A stretch of DNA of 64,000 nt from Clostridiales bacterium (GTDB lineage Bacteria > Bacillota > Clostridia > Peptostreptococcales > Acidaminobacteraceae), in the NCBI GenBank assembly GCA_016342415.1, contig JAEIOD010000021.1, positions 1-64,000 of the forward strand, written 5' to 3'. The notes below the pieces were generated by a model that saw only the letters and a program-made list of their open reading frames with translations, ran no database searches and was not told the DNA's origin. Position 1 is the first letter of the stretch. Each line of letters opens with the position of its first letter. Below, one piece after another: positions 16,728 to 36,398 of this stretch. Made by a program: the position numbers and the translations under genes.

Positions 16728-18224
16728 CTACTTTTTCATCGAACCTGTCTTTAAGAAACGATCATGCCAAGAGTGAGACTCATCCATTAAATGCGGTTCA
16801 TGACTAAACTTACCCGTTTCAGCACGGTTTAAATAATCTAATAACATTTCTTTATAATTTGGATGTGCACAGTTCTCAATAATCGCCCTTGCACGTTCGG
16901 TTGGACATAAACCTCTTACATCAGCAAGACCTTGCTCTGTTACAAATACTTCGACATCATGTTCTGTATGATCCACATGCGATACAAATGGAACGATAGA
17001 AGAAATATCACCATTTTTTGCTGTAGAAACCGTAGTAAAGAATGATAAATATGCATTTCTGGTAAAATCACCAGAACCTCCTAAACCATTCATCATACGC
17101 GAACCCATGATGTTTGTTGAATTAACATGACCATAGATATCAAATTCAATCGCTGTATTCATTGCTATAACGCCTAAACGTCTAGCAACTTCTGGATGAT
17201 TTGAAATTTCCATCGGTCTTAAAATACAGTGTTTTGCATAATGTTCCATGTTTTCATTCAGTCTTATCAAACCTTCTTCCGAAGGTGTAAAAGACGTCCC
17301 TGAAGCTATGGTAACTTTTCCTGCATCTATAAGGTCGAACATCGAATCCTGAATAACTTCTGTATAACAGGTTAAGTTGTCAAAGTCAGATTCGACCAAT
17401 CCACCTAAAACAGCATTTGCAACCGAACCAACACCCGATTGTAGGGGGAGTAAGTTCTTTGGTAACCTTTTGGCTGCAACTTCTGCTTCTAAAAATTTAA
17501 TAATGTGCTGAGAAATTTTCTTTGAATCTTCATCAATAGCACCGAGTGGTCTTACTTTATCAGCAATATCACACTCTACAATAGCAACTATTTTTTCCGG
17601 ATCACAAGTGATGTACGGCGTACCAATACGATCACCCGAATGCGTAATAGGAATAGGCTCTCTAAACGGTGGTTTTTTTGTCATATAAATATCATGAACA
17701 CCTTCTAAAGCCATAGATTGTGATGTGTTAATTTCAACAATAACAATATCTGCCTCTGCAACCGCTTGAGGTGAAATACCAACAGATGTCGTTGGGATAA
17801 TATTACCCTCTTCCGTGATAGCCAAAGCTTCAATAATTGCAATATCTATATTGCCAAAGAAACCATATTCGATAAACTGAGGCACATGACTTAAATGCAT
17901 ATCTTGGTAAGCTACAGTACCTGCATTGATACCGTTTCTTGAATCATTATTCGTTTGATACGGGAATCTTCTTTTTAAAACACCCGCTCTGGATAACGCA
18001 CCATCTAATTCATCACCCACTGAGGCACCAGTAATTAGAGTCACACCAATTTCCTCACCATTTTCAGCTCGTTTCGCAAGTGCCAAAGGAACTGCTTTCG
18101 GATAGCCCGACGGTGTAAAACCACTTGTTGCCAGTGTCATGCCATCTTTTATGAATAAGGCCGCTTCGTCAGCAGTCATAACTTTCTCTCTTAACTTTTC
18201 CATTCTAATACGGTCTAAAATCAT
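16728..18224 (-). CDS. scpC: succinate CoA-transferase (Cat1/acetyl-CoA hydrolase family)
   Basis: Transfers CoA to succinate, most likely from propionyl-CoA or acetyl-CoA, feeding succinyl-CoA to the mutase. The 498-residue protein has the family's N-terminal region with LATSGFTPSGYPK, the catalytic-glutamate region around YTEVIQDSM, and GGSGDFTRNAY near the C-terminus. Length matches Cat1/ScpC/AarC enzymes. The donor CoA ester cannot be read directly; propionyl-CoA is preferred because every other enzyme of the cycle is encoded beside it. AAGGAGG precedes the ATG, only 22 bases after a strong terminator-like hairpin. Confidence 0.93.
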   Translation of the reverse strand: MILDRIRMEKLREKVMTADEAALFIKDGMTLATSGFTPSGYPKAVPLALAKRAENGEEIGVTLITGASVGDELDGALSRAGVLKRRFPYQTNNDSRNGINAGTVAYQDMHLSHVPQFIEYGFFGNIDIAIIEALAITEEGNIIPTTSVGISPQAVAEADIVIVEINTSQSMALEGVHDIYMTKKPPFREPIPITHSGDRIGTPYITCDPEKIVAIVECDIADKVRPLGAIDEDSKKISQHIIKFLEAEVAAKRLPKNLLPLQSGVGSVANAVLGGLVESDFDNLTCYTEVIQDSMFDLIDAGKVTIASGTSFTPSEEGLIRLNENMEHYAKHCILRPMEISNHPEVARRLGVIAMNTAIEFDIYGHVNSTNIMGSRMMNGLGGSGDFTRNAYLSFFTTVSTAKNGDISSIVPFVSHVDHTEHDVEVFVTEQGLADVRGLCPTERARAIIENCAHPNYKEMLLDYLNRAETGKFSHEPHLMDESHSWHDRFLKTGSMKK

Positions 18225-18346
18225 ATTTCCTCCTTAAAAAATCCGTAAAAAAAGGCGTTAGAAATAAACATAAAGTTTATATCTAACGCCTAATGATTAC
18301 GGGATAGGCGAGAGGTTATCTCACCAAAATAGTCATTTGTTAAATA
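18225..18346 (-). promoter_or_regulatory. candidate attenuator/antiterminator leader of scpC
   Basis: Three mutually exclusive stems occur in transcription order on the minus strand. Stem 1 is GGTGAG/CTCGCC (18320-18325 with 18307-18312). Stem 2 is CGCCTA/TAGGCG (18305-18310 with 18287-18292). Stem 3 is a terminator of 9+6 bp with one mismatch (18254-18290) followed by seven T. Stem 2 shares bases with both stem 1 and the terminator, the anti-terminator layout. The terminator ends about 22 bases before the scpC ribosome site and start, so it controls entry into scpC. No known riboswitch class was recognised. Confidence 0.55.
18254..18290 (-). terminator. intrinsic terminator between DUF3870 gene and scpC
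   Basis: Stem GGCGTTAGA/TCTAACGCC (18254-18262 with 18282-18290) extended by ATAAAC/GTTTAT after one A-A mismatch, ATAAA loop, then TTTTTTT on the minus strand. It ends the antiporter-DUF3870 transcript or attenuates read-through into scpC. Confidence 0.9.
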
Positions 18347-18649
18347 TTAAATCTGATTCAATTTTTCATGACATGTTCTCATCGCGGAAATAAGTGCTTT
18401 CTTTGCTGATCCATAATAATGTTTTACAAACCCTGCTTCAATCGTTTCAATATCATTTAAATCCAGATCGACTACAAGAGATTTAAAAACCCTTTTAGCT
18501 AAACTTGTCACCAAAGAACATTCCGCATCTAAAATGATGCCTGTTTCTTTATCAACGAGTAGTCCAACACAGATAACGGTATAAAGTTCACTCGCTGTGA
18601 TCCCTTGAGGGAGTTTTGCATATCCTGTTACAAAAACTTCATTCTTCAT
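18347..18649 (-). CDS. DUF3870 family protein
   Basis: A 100-residue protein starting MKNEVFVTGYAKLP. The start at 18649 is chosen because AGGTGG lies five bases upstream; longer alternatives lack a ribosome site. The middle (GIILDAECSLVTSLAKRVF) and the YYGSAKKALISAMR segment match the DUF3870 family as I know it, whose function is undescribed. It is cytoplasmic, with no membrane segment or signal. It lies 54 bases downstream of an AspT/YidE-type antiporter gene in one transcript, so a role in regulating or sensing that transport is a reasonable guess. Confidence 0.8.
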   Translation of the reverse strand: MKNEVFVTGYAKLPQGITASELYTVICVGLLVDKETGIILDAECSLVTSLAKRVFKSLVVDLDLNDIETIEAGFVKHYYGSAKKALISAMRTCHEKLNQI

Positions 18650-18703: not shown

Positions 18704-20092
18704 TTACATTGGTAAACCGTGCAAAATAATTGTGAACAATACCATTCCCAATAAAGCAAACGGATACGTTGCACCATAACCTGCTGCTGGATCATCCGAA
18801 CCGATTGCATCAACAGCTGCACCTAATCCTGGCGTTGAAGTCATACCACCACAGATAGCGCCTGATAACATAATCCAGTTGATTTTAAAGATATATTTAC
18901 CAACAAGGAAACCAACCATCATTGCAACTAATCCTACAACTAGTCCGACAACTGCTAAAATCACACCAGATCCAGCTAAAGCATCAAATACTTTAAAACC
19001 ATAACGAAGTCCAACGATTGCAAGGAAAAATGCTAATGACAACTGTCTTACAATACCGAGTATTCTTGAGTTCATTCTGAAGTTAATCGGTCCTATTTTA
19101 CCGATATATCCAAGAATCAACGAACCTACCAGTACACCACCGGTCGATCCCAAGGAGAACACTTGATCAATGCCGATAAAGCCTAAGTCTACACCAAATC
19201 TACCGATGGTATATCCAAACAACATCGCAATACATAGAGCAATTAAATCAAAGTCTGTTTCTTTAATTTCCCTACCACCACCGGCTTTTCTCGCTTCTTC
19301 CATTTCTCTATTAAAGATCTTCTGTTCCTCTTCAATGTTTATTCTGAAAATTTTCGGGAAGAAGTTAACCGCAATAATAACAATGATGACACCAAACGGA
19401 TAGCCTATCGCGTGACCTACGCCGATTCCAGCTTCCGCATTTTGGATAAACTTTGTTTTCATATCATCCGTTAACTCAGGATAATCTGAAACTTTAAAGT
19501 CCTTATCAAGTTGCTTAAGCACTTTTGCCTTTTCGTCATCTGCCATTTCTGCATATTCTGTAACTAAATTCGTCGCATGCTTAGTAGCCGTTTCCGTTGC
19601 CGCTGCAAGTCCTGGCGAACTTGTTAACGCACCGGTATACACCCCTGATACTTCATACGGTGTTGAATCACTATTTAAAACTTTCGTTGTAAATATCGTC
19701 ATACCATACGTCGTTGCTGCACCTGCGAAAGTAATTATTACACCTAACAGCACAAACTTAAGTCCATACTTTTTAAGTACTGCTCCAATATCCTTTGAAG
19801 CCAATAAACCTACTGTTGCTACAAATAAAATTAAAAATAAATAAAAGAAGTCCTTCGGTATAATACCTTTACCTAAAAAACTTTGTGCTGCACTAAAATA
19901 ATCGTCACCTTCAACAAATCCTTTAGCATACTTCACTACCACCCATCCGAATAATAGTCCTGTAAACAATGTGCCCGATACTCCAAAATTAAATTTACCA
20001 AATTTAATTTTACCAAACATCATACCTGTAAATACCGCAACAAACATTAGTACAAACGGGTTCATGATCCATTTTGCTAATTCAAACTCCAT
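18704..20092 (-). CDS. AspT/YidE/YbjL-type antiporter, probable dicarboxylate transporter
   Basis: The start at 20092 follows GAAAGGGG; an upstream frame extension has no ribosome site. The 462-residue protein has about ten membrane helices arranged as two homologous halves, each with a signature loop: GALTSSPGLAAATETA in the first half and SGAICGGMTSTPGLGAAVD in the second. These are hallmarks of the aspartate:alanine exchanger superfamily (TIGR01625 domain repeats). The usual central TrkA-C domains are replaced by a charged loop of about 100 residues (about 150-250). Its position beside succinate, fumarate and malate enzymes suggests exchange or uptake of a C4-dicarboxylate. Confidence 0.85.
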   Translation of the reverse strand: MEFELAKWIMNPFVLMFVAVFTGMMFGKIKFGKFNFGVSGTLFTGLLFGWVVVKYAKGFVEGDDYFSAAQSFLGKGIIPKDFFYLFLILFVATVGLLASKDIGAVLKKYGLKFVLLGVIITFAGAATTYGMTIFTTKVLNSDSTPYEVSGVYTGALTSSPGLAAATETATKHATNLVTEYAEMADDEKAKVLKQLDKDFKVSDYPELTDDMKTKFIQNAEAGIGVGHAIGYPFGVIIVIIAVNFFPKIFRINIEEEQKIFNREMEEARKAGGGREIKETDFDLIALCIAMLFGYTIGRFGVDLGFIGIDQVFSLGSTGGVLVGSLILGYIGKIGPINFRMNSRILGIVRQLSLAFFLAIVGLRYGFKVFDALAGSGVILAVVGLVVGLVAMMVGFLVGKYIFKINWIMLSGAICGGMTSTPGLGAAVDAIGSDDPAAGYGATYPFALLGMVLFTIILHGLPM

Positions 20093-20133
20093 GTCTATCC
20101 CCTTTCTCTCTTTAAATAACAAAAACACAAAAA

Positions 20134-20178
20134 GACGACATTAAATAAAAAAACCGAGGTTTCTAAATTTATGCCGTC
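20134..20178 (-). promoter_or_regulatory. terminator-like hairpin in the antiporter leader
   Basis: On the minus strand, 20167-20178 pairs with 20134-20146 (12-13 bp with a G-U pair and a bulge), and TTTTTGTGTTTTTG follows. It lies 42 bases before the antiporter start. A second perfect hairpin, 8 bp (TGACAAAA/TTTTGTCA, 20193-20213), precedes it, and its loop bases ATGCC can pair with GGCAT in the 5' arm of the large stem. This suggests a regulated leader. Confidence 0.45.
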
Positions 20179-20256
20179 ACATACTCATTGGATGACAAAA
20201 GGGCATTTTGTCAAAATAAGTAACAAGGCTCTATGCATTTGTTAAATACTATGTTA

Positions 20257-20286
20257 ATAATATCACAAATTGTGTAGCGATTGCAA
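20257..20286 (-). promoter_or_regulatory. promoter of the antiporter-DUF3870 transcript
   Basis: On the minus strand: -35 TTGCAA (20281-20286), 18-bp spacer, -10 TATTAT (20257-20262), about 165 bases upstream of the antiporter start, leaving a long structured leader. Confidence 0.65.
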
Positions 20287-23113: not shown

Positions 23114-23155
23114 TACAATTTTTATAATATTCAGTAAACCGATAAAAAAAGCAAA

Positions 23156-23182
23156 AATGCTCTAGCAGACAGCTAGAGCATT
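23156..23182 (-). terminator. ftsH terminator
   Basis: Eleven-bp perfect stem (23156-23166 with 23172-23182), five-base loop, then TTTGCTTTTTTT on the minus strand, directly after the ftsH stop codon. Confidence 0.85.
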
Positions 23183-23185
23183 CAT

Positions 23186-36310: not shown

Positions 36311-36398
36311 TGGTGCCGAGGACCGGAATCGAACCGGTACGATCGCAATGATCGCAGGATTTTAAGTCCTGTGCGTCTGCCAGTTCCGCCACCACGGC
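36311..36398 (-). tRNA. tRNA-Leu (anticodon UAA)
   Basis: Read on the minus strand, this 88-nt gene has the class II tRNA-Leu form: GGCGGAACTGGCAGACGC D-arm, anticodon stem CAGGA/TCCTG around loop CTTAAAA (anticodon TAA), a long variable arm CGATCATTGCGATCG, TTCGATT T-loop and an encoded CCA end (36311-36313). The acceptor stem is GCCGTGG/CCTCGGC, so position 5 (U) faces position 68 (U), a mismatch where B. subtilis has G-U. It has its own promoter and terminator. Confidence 0.97.

Follow-up and report, generated by a model that had tools for sequence, protein, structure and literature searches.

The window analysed here, a 64,000-nt stretch of DNA from an uncultured Clostridia bacterium, carries on its minus strand the gene order fumA-fumB-malic enzyme-permease-DUF3870-scpC-mutA-mutB-meaB-mce-carboxyltransferase. 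Two copies of an RNA element lie in this cluster (Table 1). Element 1 begins directly after the stop codon of the DUF3870 gene and precedes scpC, and element 2 occupies 20129-20230 as a whole, between the malic enzyme and permease genes. The gene order is compatible with a predicted control over the entire succinate-to-propionate operon. DUF3870 encodes a 100-aa protein, and PF12986 is its only significant Pfam match.

Table 1. Features of the DUF3870-scpC region, in the order of transcription
Feature	Position	Strand	Basis
Possible sigma-70 promoter, TTGCAA-18-TATTAT with TG before the second hexamer	20257..20286	-	Pattern match only; just upstream of element 2
Element 2 antiterminator: GCC 20227-20229/20173-20175, P1 20215-20224/20176-20189, P2 GACAAAA-UGCCC-UUUUGUC 20194-20212	20173..20230	-	R1 match and fold
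Element 2 terminator, GACGGCAU...AUGUCGUC and U-tract 20129-20133	20129..20178	-	5' arm common to antiterminator; folds
AspT/YidE-type permease (Asp-Al_Ex), behind element 2 and upstream of DUF3870	18704..20092	-	PF06826 7.5e-59; NCBIfam AspT/YidE
DUF3870 gene (PF12986), proposed RNA-binding regulator	18347..18649	-	Pfam 5e-25; co-occurrence and co-loss with the RNA
Element 1 outer antiterminator helix, 5' strand (UAUUUAAC)	18339..18346	-	Pairs with 18280-18287, 8 bp; nascent-RNA MFE; covariation
Element 1 inner P1, 5' strand: AAUGA 18333-18337, UAU 18329-18331	18329..18337	-	Pairs with 18292-18296 and 18298-18300; covariation
Element 1 P2 hairpin, GGUGAGA-UAACC-UCUCGCC (stem 1 of the initial annotation)	18307..18325	-	Compensatory changes, 9/9 model pairs
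Element 1 inner P1, 3' strand	18292..18300	-	Fold and covariation
Element 1 outer antiterminator helix, 3' strand (GUUAGAUA)	18280..18287	-	Common to terminator 5' arm
Element 1 intrinsic terminator: hairpin 18254-18290 and seven U 18247-18253	18247..18290	-	Full-length fold
scpC, succinyl-CoA:acetate CoA-transferase, downstream of element 1	16728..18224	-	NF053853, 724 bits against a cut-off of 500

Element 1 can form an antiterminator or a terminator. The 3' strand of the antiterminator is also the terminator's 5' arm, so the two structures are mutually exclusive. Inside the outer helix, the inner P1 pairs AAUGA with UCAUU and UAU with GUA, and P2 is capped by a pentaloop with a CC end. The initial annotation had described three hairpins before scpC, and all three are present at the positions given: stem 1 (GGTGAG/CTCGCC, 7 bp when the pair 18319/18313 is counted), stem 2 (CGCCTA 18305-18310 with TAGGCG 18287-18292), and a terminator with seven T that lies 22 nt from the scpC ATG at 18224. 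It had also stated that terminator and antiterminator exclude each other, which is borne out, though through another pairing. Stem 2 had been taken as the antiterminator, but it pairs in 46% of the cells in 26 relatives, against 28-56% with partners slid by 1-3 columns. One of its pairs is found in the window alone, and stem 2 is not conserved. The antiterminator is instead the long helix around P2 that is formed by the outer helix and inner P1, and stem 1, formerly taken as an anti-antiterminator, is the conserved P2 hairpin inside it. The longer pairing of UAUUUAAC with GUUAGAUA had gone unmentioned, as had the second whole element before the transporter gene.

The spacer between DUF3870 and scpC folds at -39.8 kcal/mol, compared with -18.3 +/- 3.2 for shuffles (z = -6.8), and most of this is driven by the terminator. 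With the terminator removed, the rest of the spacer stands out less (z = -2.1), and for this reason conservation, and not folding energy, decides about the part upstream of the terminator. In folds of the growing transcript, the antiterminator (-17.5 kcal/mol) persists up to the point where the terminator's 3' arm emerges, and it then gives way to the terminator (-33.6 kcal/mol). The full-length element has the same energy with the terminator (-33.6 kcal/mol) and reaches -17.8 kcal/mol when the antiterminator is forced. The terminator of element 1 was not listed by a simple terminator scanner, yet it is unambiguous in the RNA fold.

The DUF3870 protein was searched against 148 related genomes, and the sequence after the stop codon was then inspected. 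Nearly all DUF3870-scpC spacers have a common RNA, in which a hairpin with a loop of 5 nt is flanked by a 5' strand and a 3' strand, and the terminator begins inside the latter. The element is 67 nt long and has two helices and the pentaloop. RNAalifold on 26 aligned spacers (alignment A1) found P2 unguided, with both-sided changes in 9/9 pairs. The comparison of relatives' spacers that had been proposed initially thus upholds stem 1, as P2, and lends no comparative support to stem 2. The full structure is paired in 84% of the A1 cells, as against 37-51% with slid partners, and its covariation score was unreached by any shuffle. The outer helix, which has fewer both-sided changes than P2, is somewhat favoured by A1, because the ends of its rows were cut manually at the proposed outer helix. 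After realignment to the model, 44 distinct rows, four weak antisense matches among them, are 86% paired with 156 both-sided cells. The loop usually ends in CC (NNNCC in most rows of A1), and the exceptions are L033, L233, and several leaders of subtypes B and C (see below). Attenuators in general have a mutually exclusive and phylogenetically conserved terminator and antiterminator, and both are found here. The element before scpC, for which a new attenuator had been suggested, is on the strength of this conservation and covariation a terminator/antiterminator attenuator that is conserved and new.

The covariance model R1 finds the RNA in 35/297 genomes of the order. It recovers untrained copies that adjoin DUF3870 in six genomes (G041, G073, G101, G115, G198, and G014) as well as element 2 in the window (20170-20235, 39.9 bits, E 2e-4 in a search of the window). 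The terminator of element 2 competes with its P1. Equivalent copies before the permease gene occur in G001, G014, G198, and weakly in G004, and that of G198 is the sole copy. The element that follows DUF3870 lies directly before mutA in G145, G115, and G003. One operon (L071, G145:C4:161000-175576) has two DUF3870 genes, and an element follows each of them, before scpC in one case and before mutA in the other. Promoter-like sites in the region are not above chance, and the one at 20257..20286 is by itself no evidence. R1 is order-specific: a class-wide search beyond the order brought no new match at E<=0.01, even though recognisable, if diverged, leaders accompany DUF3870 loci in other classes.

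Rfam 15 has no model for this RNA. A tRNA at 36314-36398 is the only feature of the window to reach the gathering score, and at E<=10 the element region has sub-threshold matches only, nearly all on the wrong strand. The leaders of relatives and of the paralogs B and C are likewise without a match. This bears out the earlier statement that no known riboswitch core is present. A T-box was considered along with the known riboswitches as the identity of the element and rejected, there being no match at the element. The T-box leader that was found, at L105:2168-2436 on the minus strand, is above the gathering score and sits elsewhere, near a subtype C DUF3870 locus. In the open literature searched, neither a description of the RNA motif nor a function for DUF3870, whose name is all but absent there, was found; subscription papers or supplements may contain it as an unnamed computer-predicted motif. 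The RNA switch belongs to a family that is unreported in Rfam 15 and the open literature searched.

The RNA accompanies DUF3870. Among the 148 genomes searched, 70 have scpC, and 38 of these 70 have a clade-A DUF3870. The RNA is present in 31 of the 38 and in 0/32 without this DUF3870 (Fisher 2e-13, indicative only, as the genomes are related and P values overstate their independence). Most of the 20 inspected scpC loci that lack DUF3870 in front have a short spacer after the permease gene with an RBS only and no switch. Where DUF3870 is absent, the leader and terminator are absent too, while scpC and the permease gene remain. Judged by gene content, the RNA tracks DUF3870 and not scpC, and the DUF3870 gene, RNA, and terminator are gained or lost as a single module. 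Since the RNA family adjoins most DUF3870 copies, DUF3870 probably works the switch. DUF3870 genes without such a leader are found at L092, L093, L098, L230, and L249-L251. In 14 control genomes PF12986 did not occur, and Bacillus subtilis 168 is likewise expected to lack DUF3870.

DUF3870 paralogs (~35% identity) precede genes that we take, from sequence motifs and not from database searches, to encode a class-III aminotransferase, a DctA-like symporter, BKACE, a CoA-transferase subunit, dipeptide epimerases, hydro-lyases, and others. Most paralogs are followed by a leader of common layout. Subtype B leaders have the form CUGCUUU...P2...AAAUCCAG, and subtype C leaders have the form GUUUUGUUUA...P2...UAAAUAAGACCCAG. 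The two structures are paired in 89% and 96% of cells, respectively, with covariation beyond shuffles and slides. P2-like hairpins (at least 7 bp, CC loop) are present in 46/127 DUF3870 spacers, compared with 1.2 +/- 1.0 in shuffles. The genome of the window has a B copy of its own at G000:C20. At two loci (L121 in G037:C1 and L123 in G029:C41), DUF3870 and the gene for a beta-keto acid cleavage enzyme are separated by a tandem pair of B-type elements.

The B model, R2, gave matches below E 1e-4 in 32 genomes. All 32 have DUF3870, compared with 60/148 overall (P 4e-16, again only indicative for related genomes). Family f5 has leaderless DUF3870-B genes, whose proteins fall in clade B. Its B elements are unlinked to DUF3870-B and lie before a symporter gene (L273) or aminotransferase genes (L278, L282, and L283), which suggests that DUF3870 may act in trans.

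Several properties of the RNA would also fit a true riboswitch. In that case the antiterminator would be stabilised by direct binding of a metabolite, such as a dicarboxylate or CoA ester, to the P1-P2 RNA, and DUF3870 would serve the same pathways as a metabolic enzyme or accessory protein. The conserved hairpin and internal loop are compact, metabolic genes lie downstream, and the antiterminator/terminator layout resembles that of ON-type riboswitches with terminator platforms, in that the 3' strand of P1 also serves the terminator as its 5' arm. Unlike those riboswitches, this RNA has no Rfam 15 match and follows a protein gene and not a metabolite pathway. DUF3870 is its constant partner while the downstream genes vary (scpC, mutA, permease, aminotransferase, DctA-like symporter, BKACE, epimerase, and hydro-lyase), and the RNA is gone wherever DUF3870 is gone, even where scpC and the permease gene stay. 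The three leader subtypes are also alike in architecture more than in a common sequence core. A riboswitch is for these reasons a doubtful explanation, though one worth keeping in mind.

A transcription antitermination switch, with the DUF3870 protein as the most likely sensor, is the probable explanation on these sequence comparisons. RNA binding by DUF3870, its ligand, and the direction of control we infer as follows. In the presence of a pathway ligand, which for clade A may be succinate, methylmalonate, or a CoA ester, DUF3870 would bind P2 together with the internal loop next to it. Ligand-bound DUF3870 would hold the antiterminator, and RNA polymerase would read into scpC-mut from element 1 and into the transporter gene from element 2. 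Without DUF3870 binding, the more stable terminator would win, and transcription would stop. DUF3870 would be made even with scpC off, because its gene precedes the terminator of element 1. Element 2, being upstream, would add positive feedback.

The anatomy of the element leaves the sign of control unfixed, and DUF3870 might act in the opposite direction, blocking the antiterminator and promoting termination when an end product is abundant, as in repression of the PyrR or TRAP kind. The antiterminator does form first in the nascent RNA, and the default would be ON if it were kinetically trapped. However, conservation falls within the antiterminator, which a protein that recognises the conserved part would stabilise, and at equilibrium the terminator is more stable by ~16 kcal/mol. 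The downstream genes are also mostly catabolic or uptake-like, where induction is usual. Repression of this kind is unlikely.

Among the control modes offered by the initial annotation, control by a protein, here DUF3870, is clearly favoured, and control by translation of DUF3870 did not fare well. Ribosomes finishing DUF3870 could mask the 5' strand of the antiterminator, with DUF3870 as a long leader peptide, and the stop codon does abut the element in the window and two sister species (4 nt by match coordinates); such coupling is nevertheless highly improbable, because the distance reaches 237 nt elsewhere, element 2 and the unlinked B elements are not behind DUF3870, and DUF3870 is a conserved protein domain and not a peptide with regulatory codons. 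Equally little speaks for a plain internal terminator that sets operon stoichiometry with no regulation. The terminator is strong, and stoichiometry-setting internal terminators are reported for cellulolytic Clostridia (PMC9045158), but a plain terminator would need neither the antiterminator helices nor P2, and both show conservation and compensatory changes across much of the order and outside it.

The proposed antitermination by DUF3870 has parallels in layout among known systems. The hutP gene directly precedes the terminator and hutH, and at the DUF3870-element-scpC and paralog loci a small regulator gene is likewise directly upstream of an attenuated catabolic gene. This likeness is one of layout and not of descent. 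HutP, which acts at the hut leader of Bacillus subtilis, is a small metabolite-sensing protein that prevents terminator formation in a catabolic operon, and it binds NAG repeats (PMC7430163), whereas the putative target here is a conserved hairpin within a long antiterminator. No HutP match was found in the genome of the window.

BglG, SacY, and LicT stabilise an RNA antiterminator that overlaps a terminator (PMC4347634). The overlap is shared by the element described here, for which stabilisation by a protein is a proposal. The RAT is a stem-loop of 23-30 nt, and LicT contacts two bulges and has phosphorylatable PRD domains (PMC4347634, PMC7430163). In contrast, the element is longer (67 nt) and bounded differently, and the 100-aa DUF3870 is without another Pfam domain of the CAT-PRD type or any other, though binding of the RAT kind is conceivable. 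The leaders of ANTAR proteins (EutV, NasR, and AmiR), which also belong to metabolic operons, have a hairpin with a conserved loop that precedes a terminator and overlaps it, as here. Their targets are two small hairpins with hexaloops that have A at position 1 and G at position 4 (PMC3369931), unlike the single conserved hairpin here with its pentaloop, usually CC-ended, which falls outside the ANTAR pattern.

The fold of DUF3870 gives few indications of its relationships. An AlphaFold model from 2 sequences is poor (pLDDT 55.6), and the best Foldseek match of this low-confidence model, to IscU, is not significant (E 0.16). An IscU/NifU_N fold, considered from this match and a likeness of motifs, found no support in profile comparison, with hhalign probabilities of 0.2-1.1%. 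Homology to HutP (PF09021) was rejected by hhalign (0.2-0.5%), and the positive control between DUF3870 clades reached 99.4%.

It seems fairly likely that a class of RNA-binding antiterminator proteins has gone unrecognised, with DUF3870 (PF12986) as its founding member and with paralogs that would sense different metabolites and each read their own leader subtype. Such a class would control carboxylate, propionate, and amino-acid catabolism widely among Clostridia and their relatives in the phylum, at cis loci and in trans. To our knowledge, only a handful of protein families are involved in protein-dependent antitermination or attenuation (BglG/Sac, GlpP, HutP, ANTAR, TRAP, and PyrR). If the proposal is true, a functionally uncharacterised family gains a testable role as the sensor that works an RNA switch, with a defined target site, and the switches would include one on the succinate-to-propionate pathway of anaerobes. 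The leaders would then be a guide to the catabolic genes under each paralog, and hence to its ligand. The hairpin and terminator are small enough for reuse as a ligand-responsive part.

Further leaders may exist outside the three subtypes. Two loci from other families of the phylum (L246 in G873 and L248 in G755) have a long spacer after DUF3870 with AAGGTTAGCTGC...AACCAGCTA...GCTGGTTTT in common, which resembles a further leader subtype. GC-rich DUF3870 loci of one family (L232, L235, L237, and L238 in G843, G788, G867, and G753) have a conserved spacer with CCGGCAGGGACACGC...GGGGTCAGGTTTT, possibly another subtype. In the window, a strong hairpin (GAATGCTCTAGC/GCTAGAGCATTT) lies between ftsH and fumA at 23155-23183 and has a terminator score on both strands.
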